A DNA stretch of 58,409 bases from Azoarcus sp. (lineage in GTDB: Bacteria > Pseudomonadota > Gammaproteobacteria > Burkholderiales > Rhodocyclaceae): assembly GCA_031289095.1 (NCBI GenBank), contig JAITQD010000068.1:1-58409 (forward strand). Direction: 5' to 3'. Below the pieces are notes generated by a model. The model searched no databases, was not told the origin of the DNA, and worked only from the letters and a program-made list of their open reading frames with translations. Positions 2,982 through 43,063 of this stretch are shown piece by piece. Position 1 is the first letter of the stretch. Each line of letters begins with the position of its first letter. The translations under genes were made by a program, and so were the position numbers.

Positions 2982-4778
2982 ATGTCTTTTATCCGTTACG
3001 CCATTCGTCCTTCGCGCCCCGAGGCGCATCTGTTTGAAGTCCGTTGCACGGTGCCGGAACCTGCTCCGGACGGGCAGGTGTTCAGCTTGCCGGTGTGGAT
3101 TCCCGGCAGCTACATGATCCGCGAGTTCGCTCGCCATATCGTGAGCCTGAAGGCGGAAGCCGATGGGCGGGCGGTGGCGCTCGACAAGCTCGACAAGCAC
3201 TCCTGGCGGGCGGCAAAGGTGCCGCGCGGACAGGCGCTGACGCTCATCTACGAGGTCTATGCCTGGGATTTGTCGGTGCGCGCCGCACATCTTGACCTGA
3301 CGCACGGTTTTTTCAACGGCGCCAGCGTTTTTCTTGCCGTCGGAGGACAGACGGACGTTAAATGTCGTGTGGATATTCAGCCGCCGTCAACCTGTGCCGA
3401 AAACTGGCGCGTGGCGACCGCTCTGTCGAGCGCCGAAGGCGAACCCGGCGAGGCGGCGGCCTATGGTTTTGGCCTTTATCGCGCCGACAGTTATGACGAA
3501 CTGATCGACCATCCGGTCGAGATGGGTGCATTCACGCTCGATCATTTCGAGGCCGGCGGCGTGCGGCACGACGTCGTGCTCAGTGGCCGCCACGACTGCG
3601 ATATGGCAAGGCTCAAGGACGATCTTGCCAGCATATGTCAATGGCAAATCGACCTCTTTGGCGCGCCACCGCCGATGGCGCGCTATCTTTTTCTCACGCA
3701 GCTCGTGGGCGATGGCTATGGCGGTCTCGAACATCGCGCCTCGACGGCCCTCATCGCCAGCCGTGACGATCTGCCCTATCCCGGCATGGAGGGCCTGCCC
3801 GATGGCTACAAAATCTATCTCGGCCTGTGCAGCCATGAATATTTCCATTCCTGGAACGTCAAGCGGATCAAGCCGGCGGCGTTTATGCCTTACGATTTGG
3901 CGCGCGAGAACCACACCCGGCTGCTGTGGGCGTTCGAGGGGATCACTTCGTACTACGACGATCTGGCTTTGTTGCGGGCGGGGGTCATCGGCATCGACGA
4001 TTACCTCGGGCTGCTGGCGAAAAACATCACGTCGCTGCTGAAGACGCCGGGACGGCGTCGGCAGAGCGTGGCTGCCGCGTCGTTCGACGCCTGGACGCAT
4101 TATTACCGGCAGGACGAAAACTCGCCCAACGCCACCGTCAGTTACTACATCAAGGGGGCGCTGATCGCACTCGCGCTCGACCTGCAACTGCGTGCTGATA
4201 GCGCAGGGCGCCGCAGCCTCGACGATGTAATGCGCGCGTTGTGGCGGCAATACGGATGCGGCGATGCCGGTGTGCCCGAGGACGGCATTTTTGTCGTGGT
4301 GGGTGAAATCGGCGGCCTTGCCCTCTCGCGCTGGTTGCGCCGGACGGTGGAAGGTGTCGGCGATCTGCCGCTGGCAAAACTGCTCAGGCGCTTTGGTGTG
4401 CATTGGCAGGCCAGCGTGGCAAGCGCAGCGCCAGCGCTCGGCATCAGGCTTGCAGTTGGCAAGGAAGCGCGTATTGCGTCGATTCATGACGATGGCCCGG
4501 CGCAAAAAGCGGGACTGTCGGCGGGCGACGTACTGATCGCCGTCGATGGCTTGCGGGTGGATGGCGATCGGTTGGCGAAACTACTCGGGCGTCGCCGCGC
4601 CGGGGATCGGGTGGAAATCCATGCTTTTCGCCGCGACGAATTGATGCGCTTCGACGTCGAACTTGGCGTCGCGCCCAAGGATACGGTCAAGCTGCGCCTG
4701 GATGAGCACGCGGACAGGGACGCCGACACACTGCGCCGGGGTTGGCTGGGGGAGCGCAGGGCGGAGAAAGGGAAATGA
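2982..4778 (+). CDS. M61 family metallopeptidase with C-terminal PDZ domain
   Basis: The protein has 598 residues from the ATG; an in-frame GTG 12 bases upstream (2970) is the alternative start. It has the M61 (glycyl aminopeptidase-like) layout. An N-terminal beta domain contains PVWIPGSYMIREFARH. The gluzincin motif HEYFH (first His about residue 285) sits inside SHEYFHSWNVKRIKP, the family hallmark, with a downstream Glu in LLWAFEGITSYYDD as the likely third zinc ligand. The C-terminal PDZ domain spans about 480-565 (SIHDDGPAQKAGLSAGDVLI). No signal peptide is seen, so it is probably cytosolic. The family trims N-terminal Gly/Ala residues, but its physiological substrate is unknown. Confidence 0.88.
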   Translation: MSFIRYAIRPSRPEAHLFEVRCTVPEPAPDGQVFSLPVWIPGSYMIREFARHIVSLKAEADGRAVALDKLDKHSWRAAKVPRGQALTLIYEVYAWDLSVRAAHLDLTHGFFNGASVFLAVGGQTDVKCRVDIQPPSTCAENWRVATALSSAEGEPGEAAAYGFGLYRADSYDELIDHPVEMGAFTLDHFEAGGVRHDVVLSGRHDCDMARLKDDLASICQWQIDLFGAPPPMARYLFLTQLVGDGYGGLEHRASTALIASRDDLPYPGMEGLPDGYKIYLGLCSHEYFHSWNVKRIKPAAFMPYDLARENHTRLLWAFEGITSYYDDLALLRAGVIGIDDYLGLLAKNITSLLKTPGRRRQSVAAASFDAWTHYYRQDENSPNATVSYYIKGALIALALDLQLRADSAGRRSLDDVMRALWRQYGCGDAGVPEDGIFVVVGEIGGLALSRWLRRTVEGVGDLPLAKLLRRFGVHWQASVASAAPALGIRLAVGKEARIASIHDDGPAQKAGLSAGDVLIAVDGLRVDGDRLAKLLGRRRAGDRVEIHAFRRDELMRFDVELGVAPKDTVKLRLDEHADRDADTLRRGWLGERRAEKGK

Positions 4779-4835: not shown

Positions 4836-5678
4836 ATGTTGACCGTCTTTGACCACAACCGCAACCTTGGCGGTTTTACCTATGTCTATCCGGTGCTGTC
4901 CCGGCGCGCGGGTGGGGTGTCGCTGGGGATCAATCTCAATCCGAACAACGCATGCAACTGGCATTGCGCTTACTGTCAGGTGCCCAACCTGACACGGGGC
5001 AGGGCGCCGGCAATCGACCTCGACAGGCTCGAAGCCGAGTTGCGGGGGGTTCTTACCGCCCTCTGCCGGGGTGACTGGCTTGCCCGCAATGCGCCGGAAG
5101 GAATGCGGGTGTTGAAGGATCTGGCGTTTTCTGGCAACGGCGAACCGACGAGCGCGGTGGCATTTGCCGATGCCGTGGCGCGGGTGGCGCGCTTGCGTAG
5201 CGAATTTTCGCTGGACGAAAAAGTTGTGCTGCGCCTGATCAGCAATGGCAGCCTGCTCGGGCAGGCGCGGGTGCGGGAAGGGATTCGCCGTCTGGCGCGA
5301 GCGGGTGGCGAGGTGTGGTTCAAGCTCGATGCCGGCAGAGCTGACACCATTGCGAAAATCAATGGCGTCCGTTTGTCGCCGCGCACCGTCGCCCGCCATC
5401 TGGCGACTTGCGCAGCCTTGTGTTCCACCTGGGTGCAAACCTGTGTTTTTCGCTGGGATGACCAGCCGCCCGCCGCTGCCGAACTCGATGCCTGGCTCGA
5501 CATGCTCGGCAGAGCAAATGACGAGGGAGGGAGGATCGAAGGCGTGTTGCTCTATGGCGTCGCCCGCCCGTCCCTGCAACCCGAGGGAGTGCATATCAGC
5601 CCCCTGTCGGCGGAGGAACTTGCCGCGATCGTGGGCCGCATACAAGAAAAAGGGCTGACGGTTCGCGTCAGCCCTTGA
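4836..5678 (+). CDS. Radical SAM protein (COG0731-like)
   Basis: This 280-residue protein carries the radical SAM cluster motif as C40-x3-C44-x2-C47 in NACNWHCAYCQVP. A GNGEPTS segment near residue 105 is the usual GGEP-type motif that contacts S-adenosylmethionine. It resembles small standalone radical SAM proteins of the Fe-S oxidoreductase group related to the TYW1 catalytic domain, but it lacks the flavodoxin half, so the substrate cannot be named. The start is taken at ATG 4836; the upstream ribosome site is weak. Its last ten codons form one arm-loop-arm of a hairpin that also serves as the terminator of the convergent HTH gene. Confidence 0.8.
   Translation: MLTVFDHNRNLGGFTYVYPVLSRRAGGVSLGINLNPNNACNWHCAYCQVPNLTRGRAPAIDLDRLEAELRGVLTALCRGDWLARNAPEGMRVLKDLAFSGNGEPTSAVAFADAVARVARLRSEFSLDEKVVLRLISNGSLLGQARVREGIRRLARAGGEVWFKLDAGRADTIAKINGVRLSPRTVARHLATCAALCSTWVQTCVFRWDDQPPAAAELDAWLDMLGRANDEGGRIEGVLLYGVARPSLQPEGVHISPLSAEELAAIVGRIQEKGLTVRVSP
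5646..5676 (-). terminator. Intrinsic terminator of the HTH gene, embedded in the radical SAM CDS
   Basis: Arms AAGGGCTGAC (5650-5659) and GTCAGCCCTT (5667-5676) are perfectly complementary, with a 7-base loop. Read on the minus strand the stem is followed by a T-run (5646-5651 complement), as expected for a rho-independent terminator of the HTH gene that ends at 5700. On the plus strand no T-run follows. The whole hairpin lies inside the last codons of the radical SAM gene, whose TGA begins on the last arm base. Confidence 0.8.
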
Positions 5679-5699: not shown

Positions 5700-5999
5700 T
5701 CAGACTTTTTTCTTCTTGGAAGCCCGTGCTCCCTTTTTCAGATCCTTGTACAGCTCAGGGTTGCTGGTCTTGAGGTATTCGGCAACGTCGAAATCTTCCT
5801 TTTTGACCTTGGTGATGTCGATCTGCTCGATATGCACCAGACGCAGGAGCGCCTGTACGGGGCGAGGAATGTTGCGACCGCTCTCGTAGCGCGAGCCGCC
5901 GCTTTGGGTTACGCCGATCTTCGACCAGAACTGCGACTGGTTCAGACCGAGCTTGCGGCGGATTTCACGAACGTCGATGGGCTGTTCGGTGGTTTTCAT
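5700..5999 (-). CDS. Small XRE-type helix-turn-helix regulator
   Basis: A 99-residue protein. Residues about 10-65 form an HTH of the Cro/CI type (IREIRRKLGLNQSQFWSKIG, then VTQSGGSRYESGRNIPRP). The C-terminus is highly basic (GARASKKKKV) after a short helical stretch. A good ribosome site (AAAGGA) precedes the ATG. It is transcribed away from the cysK-cysE-encapsulin operon. Its predicted promoter is overlapped by an inverted repeat whose half-site recurs in front of cysK, so autoregulation and control of the sulfur operon are plausible. It resembles antitoxin-type HTH proteins in size, but no toxin gene is next to it. The exact function is unknown. Confidence 0.85.
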   Translation of the reverse strand: MKTTEQPIDVREIRRKLGLNQSQFWSKIGVTQSGGSRYESGRNIPRPVQALLRLVHIEQIDITKVKKEDFDVAEYLKTSNPELYKDLKKGARASKKKKV

Positions 6000-6075: not shown

Positions 6076-6105
6076 AGTATAGTGCAACCCTCATGGACTA
6101 TACAA
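6076..6105 (-). promoter_or_regulatory. Probable HTH gene promoter overlapped by an inverted-repeat operator
   Basis: On the minus strand TTGTAT (plus 6100-6105) and TATACT (plus 6076-6081) are spaced by 18 bases. The inverted repeat GTATAGT (6077-6083) / ACTATAC (6097-6103), 13 bases apart, covers both boxes. That placement suits an autorepressor site for the HTH protein. Binding is inferred, not shown. Confidence 0.55.
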
Positions 6106-6610
6106 TGGGAATAATTAACGACATGCGGTTATCCACAATAGTGCGGTGCATGACAAGGAGATACTTGGTGCCGAGTAAATTCCCGATCCTCGATTCATTG
6201 TGAAGCTCCCTGGTTACTGGAAAGGACGTTATCCAAATCTACCCTCCGTCCCGCAGCACGCTACATCATGTCGTCAATATATCACCACAGGAACGAGCGT
6301 GAAAAATTACCGCACTTTTTGTGTGTGATTGCGACATTTCCTTGTGTACCCGCACAATAACTACTTGTGCGTAGCGCCAACATCCCGCTCCTGATGGGGG
6401 TATCGGCACTCCGCGTCCGGCATTTAGACCGCGATGGCGGTCGGGTGACAATCTGGACGGAAAAATGACACAGTGACACAGAATATGTGGAACGCGCCCG
6501 CCGCGCATATGTGCATGATTTTGTCAGTGACCGGCATGCAGCCCGAGAGAGAGCACCCGGCAAGCGTGCAGTGCGCATTTTCGATGTACCGGGGATAGGT
6601 CGTACGGTGG

Positions 6611-6660
6611 CTATACAGTTTTTTGCATAAAGAAGACTATACATATAACTTGGCTATAGT
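6611..6660. promoter_or_regulatory. Cluster of CTATAC-type half-sites upstream of cysK
   Basis: CTATAC at 6611-6616 and 6637-6642, and CTATAG at 6654-6659, lie 60-110 bases before the cysK ATG. ACTATAC at 6636-6642 matches the right arm of the operator in front of the HTH gene exactly. TTGCAT (6623-6628) with TATAAC (6644-6649) could form a weak promoter with a short 15-base spacer. This is a candidate control region for the sulfur operon; the assignment is inference. Confidence 0.4.
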
Positions 6661-6720: not shown

Positions 6721-7695
6721 ATGACCCAGTTTTCCAACAATGCCCGCACCATCGGGTACACCCCTCTTGTTCGTCTCAGCCGTATCGCCGATGGCGCCGG
6801 GGCCACCATCCTGGCCAAGATCGAGGGCCGCAACCCCGCCTACTCGGTGAAAGACCGGATTGGCGTGGCGCTGGTCGAGGACGCGGAAAAGCGCGGTCTG
6901 CTCGGGCCCGGCAAGGAACTGGTGGAGCCGACTTCCGGCAATACCGGGATTGCGCTTGCTTTTGTGGCGGCGGCGAAGGGCATTCCTCTCACGCTGACGA
7001 TGCCGGAGACGATGAGCGTCGAGCGGCGCAAGCTGCTGGTGGCTTTCGGGGCCAGGCTGGTGCTGACCGAAGGGCCGAAGGGCATGTCCGGCGCGGTCGC
7101 CAGGGCGGAAGAAATTGTTGCTTCCGATCCGGGCAGGTACGTGCTGCTGCAACAGTTCAAAAACCCGGCGAACCCGGCGATCCACGAAACGACCACCGGC
7201 CCGGAAGTGTGGGACGACACTGAAGGCAAGGTCGATATTTTCGTCTCCGGCGTCGGCACGGGCGGCACCATCACCGGCGTGGCCCGCTACATCAAGAACA
7301 CCAAGGGCAAAGCGATCCAGGCGGTGGCGGTAGAGCCGGAAGCAAGCCCGGTGCTGTCGCAGAAAAAGGCGGGGCTGCCCCTGCAACCCGGCCCGCACAA
7401 GATTCAGGGCATCGGCGCGGGTTTCGTGCCTGACGTGCTCGACCTGTCGCTCGTTGACGCCATCGAGAAAGTGAGCAACGACGAAGCCGTCGCCTACGCT
7501 CGCCGGCTGGCGAAGGAGGAAGGCATCCTCTCCGGCATTTCCTCCGGGGCTGCGGTGGCGGCTGCCGTGCGTCAGGCGAAAAAGCCCGAAAATGCAGGCA
7601 AAACCATCGTGGTGATCTTGCCCGATTCCGGTGAACGTTATCTTTCGTCCGTCCTGTTCGAGGGCGTGTTCGACGCTACGGGTAACGCGCTGTGA
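6721..7695 (+). CDS. cysK: Cysteine synthase A (O-acetylserine sulfhydrylase)
   Basis: The 324-residue protein is a fold-type II PLP enzyme making L-cysteine from O-acetylserine and sulfide. The PLP lysine is K44 in [11 protein letters not shown]. The substrate loop TSGNTG is at 71-76, and the phosphate-binding glycine loop GTGGTITG is near 179-186. The C-terminal [12 protein letters not shown] segment is also typical. Length and motifs match CysK rather than cystathionine beta-synthase (no CBS domains). GGAG lies 6 bases before the ATG. It overlaps the serine acetyltransferase gene by 4 bases, so both steps of cysteine synthesis are co-expressed with the encapsulin genes downstream. Confidence 0.94.
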
Positions 7696-8678
7696 GCAAA
7701 CCCTTTTCGGCCTTGCCAGCGGAGGAGGGGGAATCCGCCGCTGACGACGGGCCGTCCTCCGGCCTGCGGCTGGATATCGACGGACTGGTCTCCGAATTGC
7801 GCGCCTTGCGCGTGCATTCGCTGCAAACGAGAAGTCGCATCGGCAGACCGCCCAAGCTGCCGTCGCGCAAGGCGCTGGCGGGCATCGTCGATGGCCTGTC
7901 GGCGGCGATCTTTCCCAACCGGCTGGGTGCGCCGGAACTGACCGACGAGGGACTCGATTATTTCGTCGGGCATACCCTCGACCGTTCGCTGCGCGCCCTG
8001 TACGACGAAGTGCGCCGCGAGCTGCGTTTTGCCGCCAACCTGACCCCGGAGACGCAAAGCGCCGGTCTTGATGCCGAAGCGGCGGCGACCGTAAAAGGGC
8101 TCGCGGCGCAGTTGCCAAAAGTGCGGGATTTGCTTGACCGCGATCTGCGCGCTGCGTTCCAGGGCGATCCGGCGGCGCGCAGCATCGACGAGGTGCTGGT
8201 CTGCTACCCGGGGATCGTCGCCATCACCTACCACCGCCTCGCGCACGAGCTTTACCTGCGCGGCGCGCCGCTCACTGCGCGGATCATCGCCGAGATCGCG
8301 CATTCATCCACCGGCATCGACATCCATCCCGGCGCCAGCATTGGCGGCAGCTTCTTCATCGACCACGGCACAGGTGTGGTGATCGGCGAGACCGCCGTCA
8401 TTGGCGAGCGGGTGCGCATCTACCAGGCCGTCACCCTGGGCGCGAAACGTTTCCCGGTCGATGAAAATGGTAACCTGATAAAAGGTGGGGCGCGGCACCC
8501 GATTGTCGAGGATGACGTGGTGATTTACGCCGGAGCCACCCTTCTGGGGCGCATCACCATTGGGCGCGGATCGTCCATCGGCGGCAGCGTGTGGCTCACG
8601 CGCAGCGTGCCGCCCAACAGTTACATCACGCAGGCATTGGCGCAAAGCGAAGTTTTTACCGCCGGTGGCGGTATCTGA
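7692..8678 (+). CDS. cysE: Serine O-acetyltransferase (EpsC/CysE type)
   Basis: A 328-residue enzyme that makes O-acetylserine from serine and acetyl-CoA. The start is a GTG overlapping the cysK stop (GTGA). The C-terminal half has left-handed beta-helix hexapeptide repeats ([20 protein letters not shown], then [20 protein letters not shown] and [15 protein letters not shown]) with the catalytic His in DHGTG. The N-terminal about 190 residues are longer than in E. coli CysE (273 residues in total). That fits the long EpsC-type acetyltransferases that often accompany Family 2A encapsulins. It ends 30 bases before the encapsulin start, so one operon is likely. Confidence 0.93.
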
Positions 8679-8708
8679 TCGTTTGAGGAAACTCGGGAGG
8701 AAATGGGA

Positions 8709-9641
8709 ATGACCGATATTCATGATGCACAAACCGCACTGGGCGACGTTGCCGCCCGAACGCTTGCAAACGCGACCAAGACTGTGCCCATGCTGGGGCG
8801 CATCACGCCGCGCTGGCTGCCGCAATTCCTGCAATGGGTGGGGGTCGAGGCGGGCATTTACCGCGTCAACAAAGTCAAGGACGAGTCCGCCATCGCGGTG
8901 AACTGTTCGGGACGCAACGATGAAAAGGAGTTGCTCCAGACCTTTGTCGATTACGAAGAGTGGGGCCGGGAATACGCGTTGAGTGCAGTCAATGCCGTGG
9001 TCGATGTGCACACCCGCGTCTCCGACCTCTACAGCAGCCCGCACAACCAGATCCAGGAGCAATTGCGGCTCACCATCGAAATTATCAAAGAGCGCCAGGA
9101 AAGCGAACTCATCAACAACCAGGAATACGGCCTGCTCAACAACGTCGCCGGGCATCAGCGTTTGCAACCGCTCGTCGGCGCGCCGACGCCGGACGATTTC
9201 GACGAACTGCTCTCCCTGGTGTGGAAAGAACCAGCCTTCGTCCTGCTCCATCCCCGCACCATCGCCGCTTTCGGGCGCGAATGTACGCGGCGCGGCGTGC
9301 CGCCTCCCACCGTGTCGCTGTTCGGTTCGCAGTTCATCACCTGGCGCGGCGTGCCGCTTGTGCCAAGCAACAAGGTAGAAATCAAGGATGGCAAAAGCAG
9401 CGTCCTGCTGCTGCGCACGGGCGAGGGCCGGCAGGGCGTGGTCGGCCTCTATCAGCCCGACTTGCCGGGCGAACAGAGCCGGGGCCTGTCCGTGCGCTTC
9501 ATGGGGATCAACCACAAGGCGATTGCTTCGTACCTGGTCTCGCTTTATTGCTCGCTTGCGGTGCTGACGGATGACGCCCTCGCCGTACTCGAAAACGTGG
9601 AAGTGGACAAGTACCATGACTACGCACATCAGTATCGCTGA
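8709..9641 (+). CDS. Family 2A encapsulin shell protein (SrpI-like)
   Basis: A 310-residue protein recognised as a Family 2A encapsulin (SrpI/MMPI group, HK97-type fold). Supporting segments are an N-terminal helix region, LQTFVDYEEWGREYALSAVN, VDVHTRVSDLYSSPHNQIQE, INNQEYGLLNN, PAFVLLHPRTIAAFGRECTR and the C-terminal SYLVSLYCSLAVLTDDALA. Such shells form icosahedral compartments loaded with a cysteine desulfurase, and the next gene encodes one. ATG 8709 is preferred over ATG 8703 because GGGAGG (8695-8700) is then 8 bases away instead of 2. It overlaps the desulfurase gene by 26 bases. Assignment is by recognition of the family plus the gene neighbourhood; no structure search was run. Confidence 0.9.
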   Translation: MTDIHDAQTALGDVAARTLANATKTVPMLGRITPRWLPQFLQWVGVEAGIYRVNKVKDESAIAVNCSGRNDEKELLQTFVDYEEWGREYALSAVNAVVDVHTRVSDLYSSPHNQIQEQLRLTIEIIKERQESELINNQEYGLLNNVAGHQRLQPLVGAPTPDDFDELLSLVWKEPAFVLLHPRTIAAFGRECTRRGVPPPTVSLFGSQFITWRGVPLVPSNKVEIKDGKSSVLLLRTGEGRQGVVGLYQPDLPGEQSRGLSVRFMGINHKAIASYLVSLYCSLAVLTDDALAVLENVEVDKYHDYAHQYR

Positions 9642-11202
9642 CGCCTCCCCGGTCACGCCCGAAGCCCTGGGCCTGCCCGGCGAAGCGGAACTGGCGCAGT
9701 TGGCGGCGCGGTTTTTCAACGCGCCGCCCGCCCCGCTGGAACTGGACGAAGCCCGCCCGGAACCGATCGTCGGCGGGGGCGCGGCCCGGACGCCGTTCGA
9801 TGTGCCGTTGCCGGACATCCGGGAACTGGCGGTCTGGAAAACTCCGCCCGCCCCGACGGTCGCCCCTTACTATTTTCTGAACAATACGCCGTCCTTCCCG
9901 TCCGGCATTGATGTGCCTGTCACCCGCCCCGCGCCGGGGCCGAACGCTTTTTCGGCGGGACAGGCGGTGCCGGGGCAGGCGTTCGACGTCCACGCCGTCC
10001 GTAAGGATTTTCCGCTGCTCGCGGAAACGGTCAATGGTCGCCCGCTCGTCTGGCTCGACAATGCCGCCACCACGCAAAAACCACAGTCCGTCATCGACCG
10101 GTTGGCGTACTTCTACGCGCACGAGAACTCCAACATTCACCGCGCCGCGCACGAACTGGCGGCGCGCTCGACCGATGCCTACGAGGCAGCGCGCGAGACC
10201 GTACGCCGTTTTGTGAATGCGCGCTCGGTCAATGAAATCGTGTTCGTGCGCGGCACGACCGAAGGCATCAACCTTGTCGCGCAAAGCTGGGGACGGCAGA
10301 ACCTGAAACCCGGCGACGAAATTCTCGTCACCTGGCTCGAACACCACGCCAACATCGTGCCCTGGCAACAACTGGCGGCGCAGACCGGCGCGGTGCTGAA
10401 AGTCGCGCCGGTCGACGGTCGTGGCGCAGTCTGTCTCGACGAGTACGAAAAACTGCTTGGCCCAAAGACGAAACTGGTCGCCTTCACCCAGGTATCCAAC
10501 GCGCTCGGCACCGTCACCCCGGCGGCGGAAATGACGCGGCTTGCGCATGCCAGGGGTGCGAAAGTCCTGGTCGATGGCGCGCAATCCGTCTCCCACATGC
10601 GTACTGACGTGCTGGCGCTCGGCTGCGACTGGTTCGTGTTCTCCGGGCACAAAGTATTCGGCCCGACGGGCATCGGCGCGCTCTACGGTAGGGAAGACCT
10701 GCTCAACGCCACCGATCCCTGGCAAGGCGGCGGCAACATGATCCAGGACGTCACCTTCGAGCGCACGCTCTACCAGGACGCTCCGGCGCGTTTCGAGGCT
10801 GGCACCGGCAACATCGCCGACGCCGTGGGGCTGGGCGCGGCGCTGGAATACGTCGAAAGAATCGGTATCGACAACATCGCCCGCCACGAACACGACCTGC
10901 TCCTGTACGGTACGCGCCTGCTCTCGGAAATACCTGGGCTGCGCATCATCGGGCAGGCGGCGGAAAAAGCGGGCGTACTTTCTTTTGTGCTCGACGGGCG
11001 CGACACCGTGAAAATCGGCAGCGCGCTCAACAAGGAAGGCATCGCCGTGCGCGCCGGACACCACTGTGCCCAGCCGATCCTGCGCCGTTTCGGGCTGGAA
11101 GCCACCGTGCGCCCATCGCTGGCGCTCTACAACACCCATGCCGACCTGGATGCGCTGGCGGCGGCGGTGTGGAAAATCGTGCGCGCCGGCAAAGCGGGGT
11201 AA
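9616..11202 (+). CDS. SufS-like cysteine desulfurase with long N-terminal extension, encapsulin cargo
   Basis: The 528-residue protein has a class II cysteine desulfurase (SufS/CsdA-type) domain from about residue 120. The PLP lysine is K346 in FSGHKVFGPTG and the catalytic cysteine is C484 in RAGHHCAQP. The first ~115 residues are Ala/Pro-rich and look disordered, with two short conserved-looking hydrophobic segments: LAQLAARFF (26-34) and PYYFL (84-88). SufS enzymes normally lack this part. In Family 2A systems such an N-terminal domain directs the enzyme into the shell. The start at ATG 9616 lies inside the encapsulin gene. The reaction is L-cysteine to alanine plus enzyme-bound persulfide. 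A terminator follows 22 bases after the stop. Confidence 0.92.
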   Translation: MTTHISIADASPVTPEALGLPGEAELAQLAARFFNAPPAPLELDEARPEPIVGGGAARTPFDVPLPDIRELAVWKTPPAPTVAPYYFLNNTPSFPSGIDVPVTRPAPGPNAFSAGQAVPGQAFDVHAVRKDFPLLAETVNGRPLVWLDNAATTQKPQSVIDRLAYFYAHENSNIHRAAHELAARSTDAYEAARETVRRFVNARSVNEIVFVRGTTEGINLVAQSWGRQNLKPGDEILVTWLEHHANIVPWQQLAAQTGAVLKVAPVDGRGAVCLDEYEKLLGPKTKLVAFTQVSNALGTVTPAAEMTRLAHARGAKVLVDGAQSVSHMRTDVLALGCDWFVFSGHKVFGPTGIGALYGREDLLNATDPWQGGGNMIQDVTFERTLYQDAPARFEAGTGNIADAVGLGAALEYVERIGIDNIARHEHDLLLYGTRLLSEIPGLRIIGQAAEKAGVLSFVLDGRDTVKIGSALNKEGIAVRAGHHCAQPILRRFGLEATVRPSLALYNTHADLDALAAAVWKIVRAGKAG

Positions 11203-11217
11203 TAACGCGCCAAACCG

Positions 11218-11266
11218 CGCTGGCAGAATCGGGTTTCAGTTCCGATTCTGTCGGCGGCGTTTTTTT
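11218..11266 (+). terminator. Rho-independent terminator of the encapsulin operon
   Basis: CAGAATCGG (11224-11232) pairs with CCGATTCTG (11242-11250), and the stem extends outward with wobbles to about 11218/11256. Seven T follow at 11260-11266. It closes the cysK-to-desulfurase operon and abuts the stop of the convergent DUF465 gene. Confidence 0.85.
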
Positions 11267-27271: not shown

Positions 27272-27356
27272 GCCCCGGTGGTGAAACTGGTAGACACGCT
27301 TGACTTAGGATCAAGTGCCGCAAGGCTTGGAGGTTCAAATCCTCTCCGGGGCACCA
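27272..27356 (+). tRNA. leuW: tRNA-Leu (anticodon UAG)
   Basis: The 85-base gene folds as a class II tRNA. Acceptor arms GCCCCGG and CCGGGGC pair, with discriminator A and encoded CCA (27354-27356). The anticodon stem CTTGA/TCAAG encloses loop CTTAGGA with anticodon TAG at 27306-27308. There is a long variable arm, and T-arm GAGG-TTCAAAT-CCTC. It reads CUA and, by wobble, other CUN codons. A DUF1778/GNAT toxin-antitoxin pair begins about 100 bases downstream. Confidence 0.96.
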
Positions 27357-33559: not shown

Positions 33560-34744
33560 ATGCTGACGCCAGAACAGTTACAAACGCTATTGCTCGATCT
33601 CGAATCGGATTGCGTTGAACGCACAATATCGACCAGTAATACAGATAAATTTGCGCAAGCGGTATGTGCGTTTGCCAACGATTTGCCCCATCATCGCAAG
33701 CCGGGTTATTTATTGATTGGCGCTGATGACAAAGGCGTTCCGGCGGGATTGACAGTAACAGACCAGTTATTGCAAAACCTTGCCGCGCTGAGATCGGATG
33801 GCAATATTTTGCCTTCGCCCATGTTGAACGTGGAGAAGATTTCACTCCCCAATGGAGAAATCGCCGTTGTAGAAGTACATCCCTCCAATATGCCGCCCGT
33901 TCGTTATAAAGGGCAAGTCTGGGTGCGCGTCGGGCCGCGTAAGGCGTGGGCCAGCGAACAGGAAGAACGCACACTGTCAGAACGGCGCGCCAGTCTGGCG
34001 AAAACCTTTGATGCCCAGGCGTTGCGTGAGGCAAAGATCAGCGATCTTTCCATGCGTCTCTTCGATGAATACCGGGCACAAACCATAGACGCGGAAATCA
34101 TTGCGAACAATCACAGAACAAGCGAAGAAAAACTGGCTTCGTTGCGCTGCCTTGATTTGACAGCACATGCACCTACCGTGGCGGGTATTTTGTTGTTTGG
34201 CGACAATCCAAGATATTTTTTGCCCGGAGCCTATGTTCAGTTCCTCAAGTTCTCGGGAACTTCAATGACCGAACGGCCAGAAGATGAATTTGTCGCTTCA
34301 GGAGATTTGCGCTCGGTGCTGGAGACGATGCGTCAGAAGATTATGGCGCACAATAACAGGGCAATTGTGCAAGGAGAAGGGTTTAGAGACAAAGAGGTTC
34401 CAGATTACCCGGAATGGGCCTTGCGAGAATTTTTTCATAACGCCATCATGCATCGTGATTACCAATCGAATACGCCGATCCGTTTTTACTGGTTTTCTGA
34501 CCGGATTGAAATTCAAAGTCCTGGTGGCCTCTACGGAGAAGTGACGAAGGAAACGCTTGAACGTCGCAACAGCTATCGAAACCCCATTCTCGCAGAGGCA
34601 ATGCGTTCCATGGGGTATGTGAATCGCTATGGCTATGGCATTCAGCGTGCGAAGGTGCTATTGCAGGAAAATGGCAATCCGCCTCCTGAACTTGACCCTG
34701 ACGACAAGGTTTTCCCCATCACGATCTACCGGAGGACGGCATGA
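33560..34744 (+). CDS. AlbA_2 (Schlafen-like) / HATPase_c_4 protein
   Basis: A 394-residue protein with two recognisable parts. The N-terminal AlbA_2-type putative nucleic-acid-binding domain is about 15-120 (VCAFANDLPHHRKPGYLLIG, then ADDKG; VWVRVGPRKAWASEQE). The C-terminal GHKL-type ATPase fold typical of so-called RecG-like proteins is about 280-390 (ALREFFHNAIMHRDYQS, DRIEIQSPGGLYGEV, then NRYGYGIQRAKVLLQE). Such proteins are common in mobile and defence-rich regions and in transcriptional regulation. Base composition is far lower in GC than the flanking pur genes. It overlaps the ParA-like gene by 4 bases. The function is unknown. Confidence 0.8.
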   Translation: MLTPEQLQTLLLDLESDCVERTISTSNTDKFAQAVCAFANDLPHHRKPGYLLIGADDKGVPAGLTVTDQLLQNLAALRSDGNILPSPMLNVEKISLPNGEIAVVEVHPSNMPPVRYKGQVWVRVGPRKAWASEQEERTLSERRASLAKTFDAQALREAKISDLSMRLFDEYRAQTIDAEIIANNHRTSEEKLASLRCLDLTAHAPTVAGILLFGDNPRYFLPGAYVQFLKFSGTSMTERPEDEFVASGDLRSVLETMRQKIMAHNNRAIVQGEGFRDKEVPDYPEWALREFFHNAIMHRDYQSNTPIRFYWFSDRIEIQSPGGLYGEVTKETLERRNSYRNPILAEAMRSMGYVNRYGYGIQRAKVLLQENGNPPPELDPDDKVFPITIYRRTA

Positions 34745-38007: not shown

Positions 38008-41000
38008 TCAGTCGTTCAGTTCGCGCCAGGAGACGCGACCTCGGTAGGAAACGCCTGTTTCCACGTTCACACAACCCACTGAGCCGTCCGGTGTGCCAAA
38101 GCAGATCTGCTTCCCCCCCTGCCCACCCAGCATCTCGAGGTTGCGGATCATGCCTTTGATCTTAATCCCAACAGGTATACCTGTTGGGCCGGGGATAATG
38201 TCTTTGTCATTCACTACGCCGTCGCCATTAAGATCCAGGAACGGGAAGTCGGGCGCTCCGCCGCCAAAGACTTCAATGTTGAAGATGTCACTGTCGCCGC
38301 CTGCTGCGCACGGATCGCCCTCGGTTGGAATGATGGAAGGAATGGTGAGCACAGCACCGCGACTGACGATGGTGACGAGGCCGGAATCTATCACTCGTTC
38401 ACCTGCGTCGCTGGGAATGTTGAAGTCGACGTACCAGCCCCGCATGCCGTCCATGTCGCCAGCGTTGGCTACTTGGGCTGTGCGTTGGCCGATGGAGTTG
38501 ACGCCGAGATGGCGTTGTCTGAGCTGACTGCGGGCGATCGTCGTGTTGCCGTCGTCGATGAGGCCGTAATAGCTCTGGATGTCCTTGTTCGACTTGTCGG
38601 CGGCGGTCAGGTAACTACCGGTGCCAAAGAGGACGTAAGTTCGCGGCGGCGTGGCGTCATTGTCGACCGCGATCAGGGGGGCTGCGGTAATCGGCTGGAA
38701 CTTGCCGCTCAATACGGCGGTGAACATCGGCACGTTGTCCGCGCCGCCGAACCGGACTTTCCAGTCGCCGGGGTTGCTGGAGCTCAGGTCGAAGCGCCAC
38801 AGGCTGCCGTAGAGGTCGCCGGCATAGACGACGTCGACCTTGCCGTCGCCATCCGCGTCCAGGAGGGCTGGCGCGGAAAGGCCGTTGGAAGTGACGCCGG
38901 GCAAGATGGGCGCGTCGAGCCGCTTTTTTACCGCGCCAGTGGCGATATTCACGATGTAGAGCGCGGCCCTGCCGTAGCAACTGTTGTAGCCGTTGCCGAC
39001 GAGGGCGTAGGTGTTGCCGTCGTTGAGGGTGGCGATCATCGGCTTGCTGAGCACAAGACCCATGTTGTCGCGGTTTGCATCGCCGCCGCACGCCGTCCAG
39101 TTGGTGGGGCCGTTGAGTTCCCACTTCACGTCGCTGGCCGAGAAAGCGGCCGGGTTTGTGATGTCGAGACCGTACAGTCCCTTGCCGCCGCGCCCGGGCG
39201 CGCCGATCAGGTAGGTGCGCGACCCCACGGCGGCGGCCTGGGTTTCGCCATCCACGTAGTAATCGTGGGTGTAGTCGATGCGCGTGAGCTGCGGCAGCCG
39301 GGGAATCATCGCGGAGGGGATGTAGGCGAACAATTCGTTGCCGTTGGCGGTGTCGAAGGCGTGCAGCATGCCGTCGTTGGCGCCGAGGTAAACAGTCTTG
39401 GTGGTCTTGACGTACAGCGGTGTGTTGTTCGGGCTGTCACCGAGCGGGCTTGGCGCGCCGCTCACGCGGGTACGGTCGCGGAAGCTCCCGCCGCGCGTCA
39501 CTTCCTTGCTGTCGCTGCCGCGCACGTAGTCGATGACGTCTCCGGCATTGAGGAAATAGAAACCGGACAGGGAAGCCTGCTGCGCCGGGTTTAGCTTGTT
39601 CAGGCGGAATTCCACGCCCGTGCTGGCGATGTCGGCCTCGCTGGCGTTGTTGCGGGTGAAAATCCTGCGGCTGTTGGCAGCCGCCAGTTTATCGGCGGCC
39701 CGCCATTTGACCGGGCCAAGGCCGTCCGGGTTGCTATCGCTGACCGGAACGATGACGGTAGCGATGAGATCGCCGCTCCAGTCGGCGGGATCGTATCGCG
39801 TGGAGAAACCCAGCGTTTCGGTTGCGCCGAAAATCTCGCTGCTGGTGTCGATGCCGCCGGAACTGGAAGCGCCTTCCTTGATGGAATTGAGGGCCTTTTC
39901 CAGCGCGTCCTGAAGCCCCAGCGCATTGCGCACGAGGAAGTAGTTGTCGGGCGTCCCGGTGCCGGTGCTGTCCCATTTTCCCGGCACGTCCGGCCAGTGC
40001 TTGGCGTCGGTGCTGCGGTCGCGGAAGCCGCCCCATTTGGCGGCGTACCAGAGCGGGTCTTTCAGCAGGGTGGCCGCACTGGCGTTCGAGGACGGGGTGA
40101 AAGTGCGCGTGCTGAACTGACCGCCGCAGCTCCCGAAGGTGCCGCTGTTGCAGGCGGGCAGGGCCGCGCAACCGGTCTGGTTGCTGGTTGAGCACCAGCC
40201 GACGTCTCTACTGTCCGGAACGTTGAGGTAGTAGTAAGGGGGTGAATCGCTGCGGCTCACCACGACGATGTAGGGGCCGTCCTTGGTGGTGCCGGAAATG
40301 TTGTAGCCGATGTTCAGGGTGATACCCGCCGACTGGTAGGTCGGCGTGACATTGACCTTGACGGTGTTGTCCGCCTGGTGCCAGACCTCGTATTCGGCGA
40401 TGACGTCCATGTCGTGGTCGGCGCCCTGTTCCATGTCCTCGTAGCTGACCAGGAAGACGGCGTGATAGCGCCCGCCGTTGGACGGGTCTTGCGGGTTGAT
40501 GCTTTTGATGTAGAACTCCACAATCTGGTTGGCAGGCTGGAAATTCCCCTTGTTGGCGTTGATGTTGTAACCGCTGCCCTTGGTCGATTTGCCGAAGGGA
40601 ATGATGGTGACGGTGCCTTGGGGCGTCGGCACCTCGATTTTGGGCAGCGGCGAGGCGAGGGCGACGACGTAGGTATCGACCTTTTGATTGTCGTGGCCCG
40701 CCGCAGTCTGGATACCTTCTTTCTTGCCGTAATAGGCTACTGCGGCGGAGTAATAGCTGCCTTCCTTGCCGGGTTCCTCGGGGGCGAGGCCGCGCACGGT
40801 GGAGAGCGTGGAGACGCTCTTGGCCGTCGGCGCCCAGTCGACCGTGGAGCCGGACTGACCGATGAAGTAGTTCTTGCTGTGGATGTTTTCTTTTACGCCG
40901 ATGTCATCTGTGAGCGTGCCGACGTTGAGCGTGCCAAAAGACCCGGTAAAGCTCGTGCTGCCCGGCGTGTTGCAGGCGTTGGTGTTGATGAGGTTGTTGG

Positions 41001-42477
41001 TCGTGACCGTGGAGCAGCTCTTGAATCTGGCGCCCGGCAACTGATCCGAATCGAACGAGGGGTTGATGTCCGAGAGCACGAGGATGTTGGGCTTGGTGCA
41101 CCATGGCACGCGGGTATAGGGTTTGTCCCAGGTGGCGACCCTGGGCAGGCCGACGGCCTGGTCGTGGCTGCCGCTGGTGTCGAAAGCCGCAGTGGGCGCG
41201 CCCGTGTTGCCCAGATAGCGAAGGGATTCGTACATCATTTCGGCGATCGGGTTGCCCCAGTCGGGAAATTCTCCTTCGTTCATGATGCGGCCACCGACCC
41301 ATGCACTGCCGCCGTTATGGTTCACGTATTGTGTGGCGCCGCTGTACTCGAAGCTGCGAATCATCAGCCGGTCGAAGGTCTGGACAATGGTGGCGCTGCT
41401 GGTGAACTGGCCGGTCTGCGGGTTGACCTCGCTCGCAAACGTTCCCATTGCCTTGCGCAGTACGCCGCCCGACAGGTTCTTGTTGTAGCTGCCGGTGAGC
41501 AGCCCGAACTGCATGGAACCATTCTCGCCAAACTTGTGGAGCAGGCCACTGGGCTTGAACACGGTGAGTCCGGCGGTGTTCGTGTAAGGCTTGCAGTTGT
41601 CGCCGCGATAGTTCTGGGTGCCGTCCGGGAGGGTGTAAGGCGTTTGGCACACTTCCACCTGGGCGACGTATTTCTGGTTTGACGCGCCGATGGCGCTGTC
41701 GCTGAACAGGCTGCCGGAGTCGGCGGCGGCCCAGTCCCAGATGCGCTTGCCAGCGGCGGCGTTCTGGGCTACGTGCAGCACGGGCGCGTAGGAATCGCGG
41801 CAGTTGCTTGCCGTCGCGCAGCTTCCAAGCATGGTGTAGCTGCCAAAGAAATGGCGTTTGTTGGCGCTTGGCAGGGCTAGCGGAGTGAAATCGCTGATGT
41901 TGTATTTGTCTTCTGCGACGCTGGTGTATTCCTTGCCCCAGCCGTGCGCGTCGCGTGGGACGTAGGCGCGGCGCAGAATGGTCTGGGTGGCGGTGTCGAC
42001 CGAACGCAGGCCGCCGTAGAGCACCTTGCGCAGGGCGTCCATGCGGCTGGTGGTGACGTAGTTGAGGAAATTCCCCGACCATGCTCCGGAGCAATTCTTG
42101 CGTTCCAGCGTGAGCACCGGGCCGCTGGCATAAAAATAATCGGCTGCGACGGTGTAGGCGGTGCTTGTGACGGTGCCGGTGATGTTCTTTCCCTTGCCCT
42201 TGTAGCACAGCTTGCTGTCGAACAGCCCGTAATACTCGATGGTGGGATCGAAGCGGATGTTGTAGTTGCCGTCGCCGTTAAGGTCGGCGGCGTCGTTGTA
42301 GGCTTCGTAGAACAGTTTGTGATCCTTGCCCGCCACCAGCATGACCAGCGGCGGATTGCTCTGGCCGGAATTCAGGGGGATGGGCGGAATGGCGATCTGC
42401 GCCGCAACGGGCGCGGCGAGAACGGGCAGAATTATGCAGGCGAGGCGCACTGCGGCGCGCGGCGAAATGGCATTCAT
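38008..42477 (-). CDS. pilY1: Type IV pilus tip adhesin/assembly factor PilY1 (PilC)
   Basis: A 1489-residue exported protein. It has a signal peptide (VRLACIILPVLAAPVAA) and a large N-terminal region with cysteines and a VWA-like stretch (NILVLSDINPSFDSD). The C-terminal Neisseria PilC beta-propeller domain contains YLGANDGMLHAFDTANGNEL, GSRTYLIGAPGRGGKGLYGL, LDADGDGKVDVVYAGDLYGS and FGTGSYL. DADGDGKVD (about 1207-1215) matches the PilY1 calcium-binding loop that controls pilus extension and retraction. Two further Asp-rich loops are DLNGDGNYN near the N-terminus and DLNGDGVVND near the C-terminus. The start is ATG 42477. It is the last gene of the minor pilin operon, 13 bases after pilX. 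Confidence 0.93.
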   Translation of the reverse strand: MNAISPRAAVRLACIILPVLAAPVAAQIAIPPIPLNSGQSNPPLVMLVAGKDHKLFYEAYNDAADLNGDGNYNIRFDPTIEYYGLFDSKLCYKGKGKNITGTVTSTAYTVAADYFYASGPVLTLERKNCSGAWSGNFLNYVTTSRMDALRKVLYGGLRSVDTATQTILRRAYVPRDAHGWGKEYTSVAEDKYNISDFTPLALPSANKRHFFGSYTMLGSCATASNCRDSYAPVLHVAQNAAAGKRIWDWAAADSGSLFSDSAIGASNQKYVAQVEVCQTPYTLPDGTQNYRGDNCKPYTNTAGLTVFKPSGLLHKFGENGSMQFGLLTGSYNKNLSGGVLRKAMGTFASEVNPQTGQFTSSATIVQTFDRLMIRSFEYSGATQYVNHNGGSAWVGGRIMNEGEFPDWGNPIAEMMYESLRYLGNTGAPTAAFDTSGSHDQAVGLPRVATWDKPYTRVPWCTKPNILVLSDINPSFDSDQLPGARFKSCSTVTTNNLINTNACNTPGSTSFTGSFGTLNVGTLTDDIGVKENIHSKNYFIGQSGSTVDWAPTAKSVSTLSTVRGLAPEEPGKEGSYYSAAVAYYGKKEGIQTAAGHDNQKVDTYVVALASPLPKIEVPTPQGTVTIIPFGKSTKGSGYNINANKGNFQPANQIVEFYIKSINPQDPSNGGRYHAVFLVSYEDMEQGADHDMDVIAEYEVWHQADNTVKVNVTPTYQSAGITLNIGYNISGTTKDGPYIVVVSRSDSPPYYYLNVPDSRDVGWCSTSNQTGCAALPACNSGTFGSCGGQFSTRTFTPSSNASAATLLKDPLWYAAKWGGFRDRSTDAKHWPDVPGKWDSTGTGTPDNYFLVRNALGLQDALEKALNSIKEGASSSGGIDTSSEIFGATETLGFSTRYDPADWSGDLIATVIVPVSDSNPDGLGPVKWRAADKLAAANSRRIFTRNNASEADIASTGVEFRLNKLNPAQQASLSGFYFLNAGDVIDYVRGSDSKEVTRGGSFRDRTRVSGAPSPLGDSPNNTPLYVKTTKTVYLGANDGMLHAFDTANGNELFAYIPSAMIPRLPQLTRIDYTHDYYVDGETQAAAVGSRTYLIGAPGRGGKGLYGLDITNPAAFSASDVKWELNGPTNWTACGGDANRDNMGLVLSKPMIATLNDGNTYALVGNGYNSCYGRAALYIVNIATGAVKKRLDAPILPGVTSNGLSAPALLDADGDGKVDVVYAGDLYGSLWRFDLSSSNPGDWKVRFGGADNVPMFTAVLSGKFQPITAAPLIAVDNDATPPRTYVLFGTGSYLTAADKSNKDIQSYYGLIDDGNTTIARSQLRQRHLGVNSIGQRTAQVANAGDMDGMRGWYVDFNIPSDAGERVIDSGLVTIVSRGAVLTIPSIIPTEGDPCAAGGDSDIFNIEVFGGGAPDFPFLDLNGDGVVNDKDIIPGPTGIPVGIKIKGMIRNLEMLGGQGGKQICFGTPDGSVGCVNVETGVSYRGRVSWRELND

Positions 42478-42490
42478 ATTTTTATATCCC

Positions 42491-43063
42491 CTATTCCGTG
42501 GCGTATATGGACTGCAAAACCACCCTGGCGCGGTTGCCGCCGTCATCGTCGCTGGCGGCGGTGATGCGGAAACGTTTGCAATTTCTGGCTGACGCGGGGG
42601 TTGCAGGGTTGCAGGGCGCCCTGTCCTCGATGAGTTCGACGATGTAGTAGGGCGCGAGCGACAGTCCGGCATTGCCGAACGTGATGTCGGTTGAGGCTTC
42701 GTTATTCGCGCGGTGCCAGAAGGTGGCGGGTTGTTCCCAGAGCGGCGTGCAATTGACGTTGGCGGCGTTCGTCATGTTGTACAGGCCGGTGGCGGCATTG
42801 GCGGTCGGGCAGCTTGTGGACGCGCCGGGGGGCGAGGCGAGGCCGCCGGAACCCCATTTTTCCGCCTGGCGTTCGCCCATGCGCAGGGCGACTTCCGCAG
42901 ACTGGAAAGCCAGATCGCGGTCGTGGGCGTTGGCGCTCATGCGTTCCTGCAAGGCGGTGCCGCGCAGGGAGGTTGCCGCCAGCAGCGACATGACCAGCAG
43001 TAGAACCAGGGCGACGACCAGGGTGGAACCGCGCTGGCGCCGGGGAAGGGTAAATCCGGTCAT
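42491..43063 (-). CDS. pilX: Minor pilin assembly protein PilX
   Basis: A 190-residue PilX-type pilin-like protein. The basic leader RRQRGSTLVVALVLLLVMSL has a hydrophobic N-terminal helix but no Glu at position +5, as is common in PilX/GspK-like tip pseudopilins. It is followed by LQERMSANAHDRDLAFQSAE, conserved in PilX. Several cysteines occur in the C-terminal half. ATG 43063 shares a base with the pilW stop. It works with PilV, PilW and PilY1 to prime type IV pilus assembly. Confidence 0.88.
   Translation of the reverse strand: MTGFTLPRRQRGSTLVVALVLLLVMSLLAATSLRGTALQERMSANAHDRDLAFQSAEVALRMGERQAEKWGSGGLASPPGASTSCPTANAATGLYNMTNAANVNCTPLWEQPATFWHRANNEASTDITFGNAGLSLAPYYIVELIEDRAPCNPATPASARNCKRFRITAASDDDGGNRARVVLQSIYATE

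Follow-up and report, generated by a model that had tools for sequence, protein, structure and literature searches.

The stretch of DNA analysed here, hereafter the window, covers 58,409 nucleotides (nt) of contig JAITQD010000068.1 from the genome assembly of an Azoarcus sp. (GCA_031289095.1). On its plus strand, between 6721 and 11202, four genes follow one another in a tight run in the order cysK, cysE, Family 2A encapsulin shell and cargo cysteine desulfurase (Table 1). The four gene identities, their linkage, the loading motifs of the desulfurase, a docking-type tail on CysE and the way in which this tail follows cysK linkage across genomes were read directly from the sequences. The operon is in itself unremarkable, one more representative of a widespread system whose layout is already known. 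The tail-cysK regularity is a new and testable addition to that layout; no statement of it was found in the literature searched, in a search that was not exhaustive.

According to the coordinates, cysK and cysE overlap by 4 nt, a gap of 30 nt separates cysE from the shell gene, and the shell and desulfurase genes overlap by 26 nt, given a desulfurase start at 9616. A longer open reading frame opens at 9571, and the start was set at 9616 because the nearest relatives share this position, 26 nt ahead of the end of the shell gene. Nine terminator-like sites were counted between 6000 and 11700 against a mean of 6.2 in shuffled sequences, a total not above chance; four of them are on the plus strand, none inside the four genes. 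The four genes probably form one transcript, and their order was found again in other genomes, far beyond chance. The tight linkage with a terminator-like end that the original prediction had described agrees with the family models, the spacing and the hairpin after the last gene. It had also singled out the presence of both cysteine biosynthesis genes in one run as noteworthy, which did not hold, since the same order occurs on pANL of Synechococcus elongatus PCC 7942 and, in a biased sample of 165 distinct CysE proteins, 74 have cysK immediately in front of their gene. The biosynthesis genes do stand directly before the shell gene, but the word "complete" used for this cysteine operon was too loose, as the genome encodes another serine acetyltransferase, and also a CysM, at other places.

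Table 1 Features of the operon and its surroundings (positions in the window)
Feature	Position	Strand	Evidence
Conserved block before cysK, ACTATACATATAACTTGGCTATA; candidate promoter or regulator site	6636..6658	+	Alignment of 8 relatives
cysK, cysteine synthase A (O-acetylserine sulfhydrylase), 324 aa	6721..7695	+	TIGR01139 over cut-off; PF00291; TSGNTG loop and QF pair in the translation
cysE/epsC-type serine O-acetyltransferase, 328 aa	7692..8678	+	NF041874 over cut-off, TIGR01172 below; hexapeptide repeats; solved relative 3f1x
CysE C-terminal tail EVFTAGGGI, putative CysK-docking type	8649..8675	+	Sequence; published role of the terminal Ile; association with cysK
Family 2A encapsulin shell protein, 310 aa	8709..9641	+	NF041162; PF19307; SrpI chain 6x8m
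Cargo cysteine desulfurase, 528 aa; ~120 N-terminal residues as loading region, followed by a SufS-type domain	9616..11202	+	NF041166, TIGR01979, 8kg1
Loading motif 1, LAQLAARFF (published LARLANEFFS)	9691..9717	+	Motif search
Loading motif 2, YYFL within VAPYYFLNN (published AASPYYFLDG)	9868..9879	+	Motif search
Terminator-like hairpin, 16-pair stem followed by a T run, GCGTTTTTTT	11218..11256	+	Best of the plus-strand terminator-like sites

The shell protein scored 510 bits against the SrpI-like Family 2A model NF041162 (cut-off 380), and PF19307 (346 bits) was the sole Pfam family found in it. It aligned collinearly over residues 6-307 with the solved SrpI chain 6x8m, an HK97-fold shell (488 bits), and was 74.3% identical to SrpI of S. 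elongatus over 99% of its length; an HK97 fold is accordingly predicted by homology. The Family 2B model NF041163 also passed its cut-off, with a lower score (413 versus 510 bits). Because the Pfam scan revealed no inserted cyclic-nucleotide-binding domain, the mark of Family 2B, in its 310 residues, the shell was assigned to Family 2A.

Downstream, the desulfurase reached 847 bits against the encapsulin-cargo model NF041166 (cut-off 800). Its SufS-type domain matched TIGR01979 from residue 127 (542 bits), and the solved desulfurase 8kg1 aligned over residues 121-522 (633 bits). In published work on relatives, two motifs were described in the loading region, this N-terminal region was required for cargo loading, and encapsulation increased desulfurase activity about sevenfold (PMC8049743). 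Under a strict pattern, both motifs were present in just 7 of 78 N-terminal regions. With a pattern loosened after the sequences had been read, motif 1 was recovered in 31 and motif 2 in 38 of the 42 relatives assessed (shuffle expectation 0.1 and 0.2, respectively), a count that leaves out 36 of the 78 regions, two being too short and 34 having no match to the catalytic anchor pattern. The model scores, the identity to SrpI, the match to 6x8m and the occurrence of both motifs in the desulfurase all bear out the earlier proposal of a Family 2A shell with desulfurase cargo.

The synthase scored 452 bits against TIGR01139 (cut-off 351), with the CysM models below cut-off; judged by these scores it is of the CysK rather than the CysM type. 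The acetyltransferase, for which we use the name CysE after the reaction catalysed, passed the EpsC-type model NF041874 (159 bits, cut-off 150), and its closest solved relative is 3f1x (257 bits). Its last residues resemble the tail by which CysE docks to CysK: the C-terminal Ile has been reported to be essential for docking and to contribute some 80% of the energy of binding, and complex formation to relieve the feedback inhibition of CysE (PMC12895370, PMC9547175).

The other cysteine genes were sought in the genome itself, which is 98% complete in 126 contigs. A search for the cysK/M family gave three places, namely the operon, contig C31, where a CysM scores 524 bits against the CysM model, and contig C73, with a weak match below cut-off; a search for CysE gave two, the operon and a copy on contig C60 ending in ...GELSKMVD. 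The operon therefore appears to hold the sole docking-competent pair found, that is, the only CysK-type synthase and the only CysE with a putative docking Ile. Two PAPS-reductase-family and two NIR_SIR (sulfite-reductase family) matches lie together on contig C8, and these genes are consistent with sulfide supply from sulfate. The cargo desulfurase is one of six aminotransferase-V proteins in the genome.

Across genomes, the Gly-Ile (GI) end was found on 68 of the 74 CysE proteins encoded beside a shell gene with cysK directly upstream, versus 10 of the 91 without it. These 165 distinct proteins derive from 224 loci, 22 of which had no cysE by our criterion; from the remaining 202, those with less than 400 nt before cysE or with an identical last 150 residues were removed. 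The tail idea came from reading relatives, and held-out loci were fetched afterwards: 71 rows belong to the discovery set, 92 were held out and two others were used in trees only. In the discovery set the GI tail occurred in 23 of 25 cases with cysK and 6 of 46 without; in the held-out set the corresponding figures were 43 of 47 and 4 of 45 (Fisher p 1e-16, uncorrected for descent, with some held-out rows closely related to discovery rows). The linkage rule, cysK at ≥60% identity within 600 nt, was set only once the held-out loci were in hand. Moreover, the locus sample is biased towards near relatives and one other order, and a few orders dominate it.

Common descent could produce such a link with no functional tie, if one CysE lineage carried both the tail and cysK and another neither. 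Close operon relatives do share both states, which together with the dominance of a few orders and the weak sign tests given below favours this explanation. We nevertheless consider it unlikely. A CysE tree built with the tail left out required at least 17 changes of cysK linkage and 21 of the tail, and the shell tree at least 19 and 21, respectively. Among the eight supported independent pairs of each tree that differ in cysK, the tail changed together with cysK in 4.7 on average on the CysE core tree and in 5.7 on the shell tree, and in the opposite direction in 0.1 on either. Additionally, the tail was far more tightly tied to cysK (phi 0.81) than any of 625 residue states in the rest of CysE (at most 0.51). 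Likelihood tests of dependent against independent change gave p 2.9e-8 for the full model and 1.9e-9 for a tail depending on cysK on the CysE core tree, and p 3.9e-13 on the shell tree; tests of this type are known to overstate, some rates were at their bounds and the trees were quick ones.

These results suggest that selection maintains the docking tail in operons that also make its partner CysK. Several observations weigh against this reading and against parts of the assignment on which it builds. The sign test on independent pairs had a median p of 0.0625 on the CysE core tree and 0.031 on the shell tree, with ranges up to 0.625. The two trees also disagree on what drives the association, which is loss of the tail without cysK on the CysE core tree (7.8 vs 0.7) or gain with cysK on the shell tree (150 vs 0.7). 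Six operons with cysK have no GI tail (L063, L083, L182, L207, L250 and L251), and ten CysE proteins end in GI with no cysK upstream, four of which (L025, L034, L039 and L134) are among the 7 of 165 cysE genes that lie downstream of the desulfurase instead of upstream of the shell. The CysE of the window scored 166 bits against the CysE equivalog TIGR01172, below its cut-off of 210.65. Even with the loosened pattern, motif 1 was not found in six near relatives of the window (L002-L005, L007 and L008), nor motif 2 in L010 and L011. Because the sign tests on eight independent pairs are weak, though the likelihood tests are strong, we regard the tail rule as suggestive and the case as not closed.

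Three of the exceptions in which cysK adjoins differ in how CysE ends. In L182 (genome G961) it ends in GGGV, and in L250 (G1033) and L251 (G1037) it stops early at ..QAQVRS. These operons are natural test cases of docking without Ile.

We interpret the locus as probably an SrpI-type (Family 2A) cysteine-desulfurase nanocompartment operon for sulfur storage, with its own cysteine synthase complex. In this scheme, CysE would produce O-acetylserine from serine, and CysK would combine O-acetylserine with sulfide to give cysteine, both enzymes being tied together by insertion of the CysE Gly-Ile tail into the active site of CysK. Cysteine would then pass into the shell, where the encapsulated desulfurase would strip its sulfur; the sulfur would stay inside as a reserve and alanine would leave. 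N-terminal loading, desulfurase activity in the shell, sulfur storage and docking by the terminal Ile are carried over from published work on relatives, and by this analogy we infer that loading, encapsulation, complex formation and storage also occur in this organism. In the literature, such systems are interpreted as sulfur stores (PMC12407261). Because shell and cargo of S. elongatus were reported to rise under sulfur starvation (PMC8049743), the reserve or recycling role may matter most under that condition.

Alternatively, the compartment may hand sulfur on, to a rhodanese or to iron-sulfur cluster or cofactor synthesis, with the shell limiting the acceptors and CysK and CysE only maintaining the cysteine pool. 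Sulfur transfer was proposed in PMC8346489, where rhodaneses were among the most enriched neighbours, and a rhodanese gene follows cyd on pANL and another precedes epsC in Variovorax. However, a scan of genes next to the operon, covering part of the window's open reading frames, revealed no rhodanese, and later work has been cited for storage (PMC12407261). We regard sulfur transfer as a distinctly unlikely main role. That the operon is mainly the cysteine-making unit of a small genome, with shell and cargo as historical passengers of little weight, is very unlikely: it does hold the sole CysK-type synthase found and is dispensable within the genus (shell genes in just 9 of 20 same-genus genomes), but shell and cargo are intact, the shell is 94-96% identical to those of the nearest relatives, and CysM and the second CysE could cover general needs.

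Following the storage reading further, Family 2A desulfurase operons might fall into two regulatory types. In one, CysE would dock the CysK of the same operon, and cysteine supply would follow sulfide and O-acetylserine; in the other, cysK is gone, the tail is lost and supply would be uncoupled. The operon described here would be of the first type, its complex dedicated to sulfur storage. We offer this division tentatively, as an idea that may well prove wrong. If the tail rule is true, it provides a sequence mark separating sulfur nanocompartments coupled to a cysteine synthase complex from uncoupled ones, and makes the feeding of shells directly testable.

Upstream, a divergent helix-turn-helix (HTH) gene lies about 720 nt from cysK. 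The conserved block before cysK was recognisable in the alignment of eight relatives, in which the ACTAT and TATAA columns are invariant, and no sigma-70 type site was found within it on the plus strand. At up to three mismatches, its pattern matched the genome once, at its own place, and a reversed control gave no match; a sulfur regulon using this block was rejected, as the pattern occurs at that one place only. A riboswitch or other known RNA in the long gap before cysK was not found: the only Rfam match in the window to attain the gathering score was a transfer RNA (27272-27353).

The divergent gene (5700-5999, minus strand) encodes an RsaL-like HTH protein (PF22495, 92 bits) and was found in 13 of the 14 same-genus genomes searched. 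Its product is 85-96% identical across same-genus genomes, and the neighbouring radical-SAM protein about 68-83%. As a dedicated regulator of the operon it was rejected, being present in five of five same-genus genomes with no shell found (G008-G012) and not found in the shell-bearing G014. In G008-G012 it adjoins the radical-SAM gene, with no cysK in the stretch fetched. Two further genomes, G004 (L117) and G005 (L120), have no shell match and carry a cysK fragment beside the HTH gene at a contig end; they were not counted as operon-less because the operon may be cut by the assembly. In L007, two copies of the HTH gene (3315-3611 and 5042-5335), 92-93% identical to that of the window, lie between the radical-SAM gene and cysK, and a similar pair occurs in G004 and G007. 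A non-coding stretch at about 6095-6140 in the window, around GGGAATAATTAACGACATGCGGTTA, is strongly conserved in seven of eight aligned relatives, the eighth being gapped, with TTAAC and GTTAA arms in most; it could serve the divergent HTH gene as its operator.

Elsewhere in the window, a gene on the plus strand (33560-34744) encodes a Schlafen/AlbA-type protein (PF04326, PF13749). Its third-position G+C is 0.53, against about 0.7-0.8 in its neighbours, and it looks recently acquired. A PilY1-type pilus tip protein of 1554 residues (PF05567) is encoded on the minus strand at 38008-42672.

Of 398 genomes in a phylum sample 17 gave shell genes, as did 7 of 369 in a class sample; together with the same-genus count, these figures make the system widespread but patchy. 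Among the best 80 of 424 confirmed stretches, the nearest relatives are metagenome-derived genomes that bear the titles Azoarcus or Zoogloeaceae bacterium, and for the ten nearest the shell is 92-96% identical. Their metagenome series is presumably of termite gut origin. The commonest accessory genes of Family 2A desulfurase operons were reported to be those for serine O-acetyltransferases and rhodaneses, with 1,281 such operons counted (PMC8346489).

The SrpI locus on pANL of S. elongatus PCC 7942 (NC_004073.2) has been described as the founding example of the family (PMC8049743). As in the window, the order on one strand is cysK, epsC (cysE), srpI and cyd, with 4 nt shared by cysK and epsC, and CysE has a GI tail (ESGGGI). 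Unlike the window, pANL has a gap of 234 nt between srpI and cyd and its rhodanese gene after cyd, whereas the window has overlapping shell and desulfurase genes, a shorter loading region and the terminator-like hairpin right after the cargo. The Family 2A desulfurase encapsulin of Acinetobacter baumannii (locus L147), which reportedly stores elemental sulfur, shares the order of CysE, shell and desulfurase; in contrast, no cysK was found there up to 4 kb ahead of the shell gene, and its CysE ends in NHIAG instead of GI. Compared with the cysteine synthase complex of enteric bacteria, CysE of the window likewise ends in Ile and CysK has the TSGNTG loop and the Gln-Phe pair, whereas CysE here is longer, EpsC-like and under the CysE equivalog cut-off, and the complex is one predicted from sequence.

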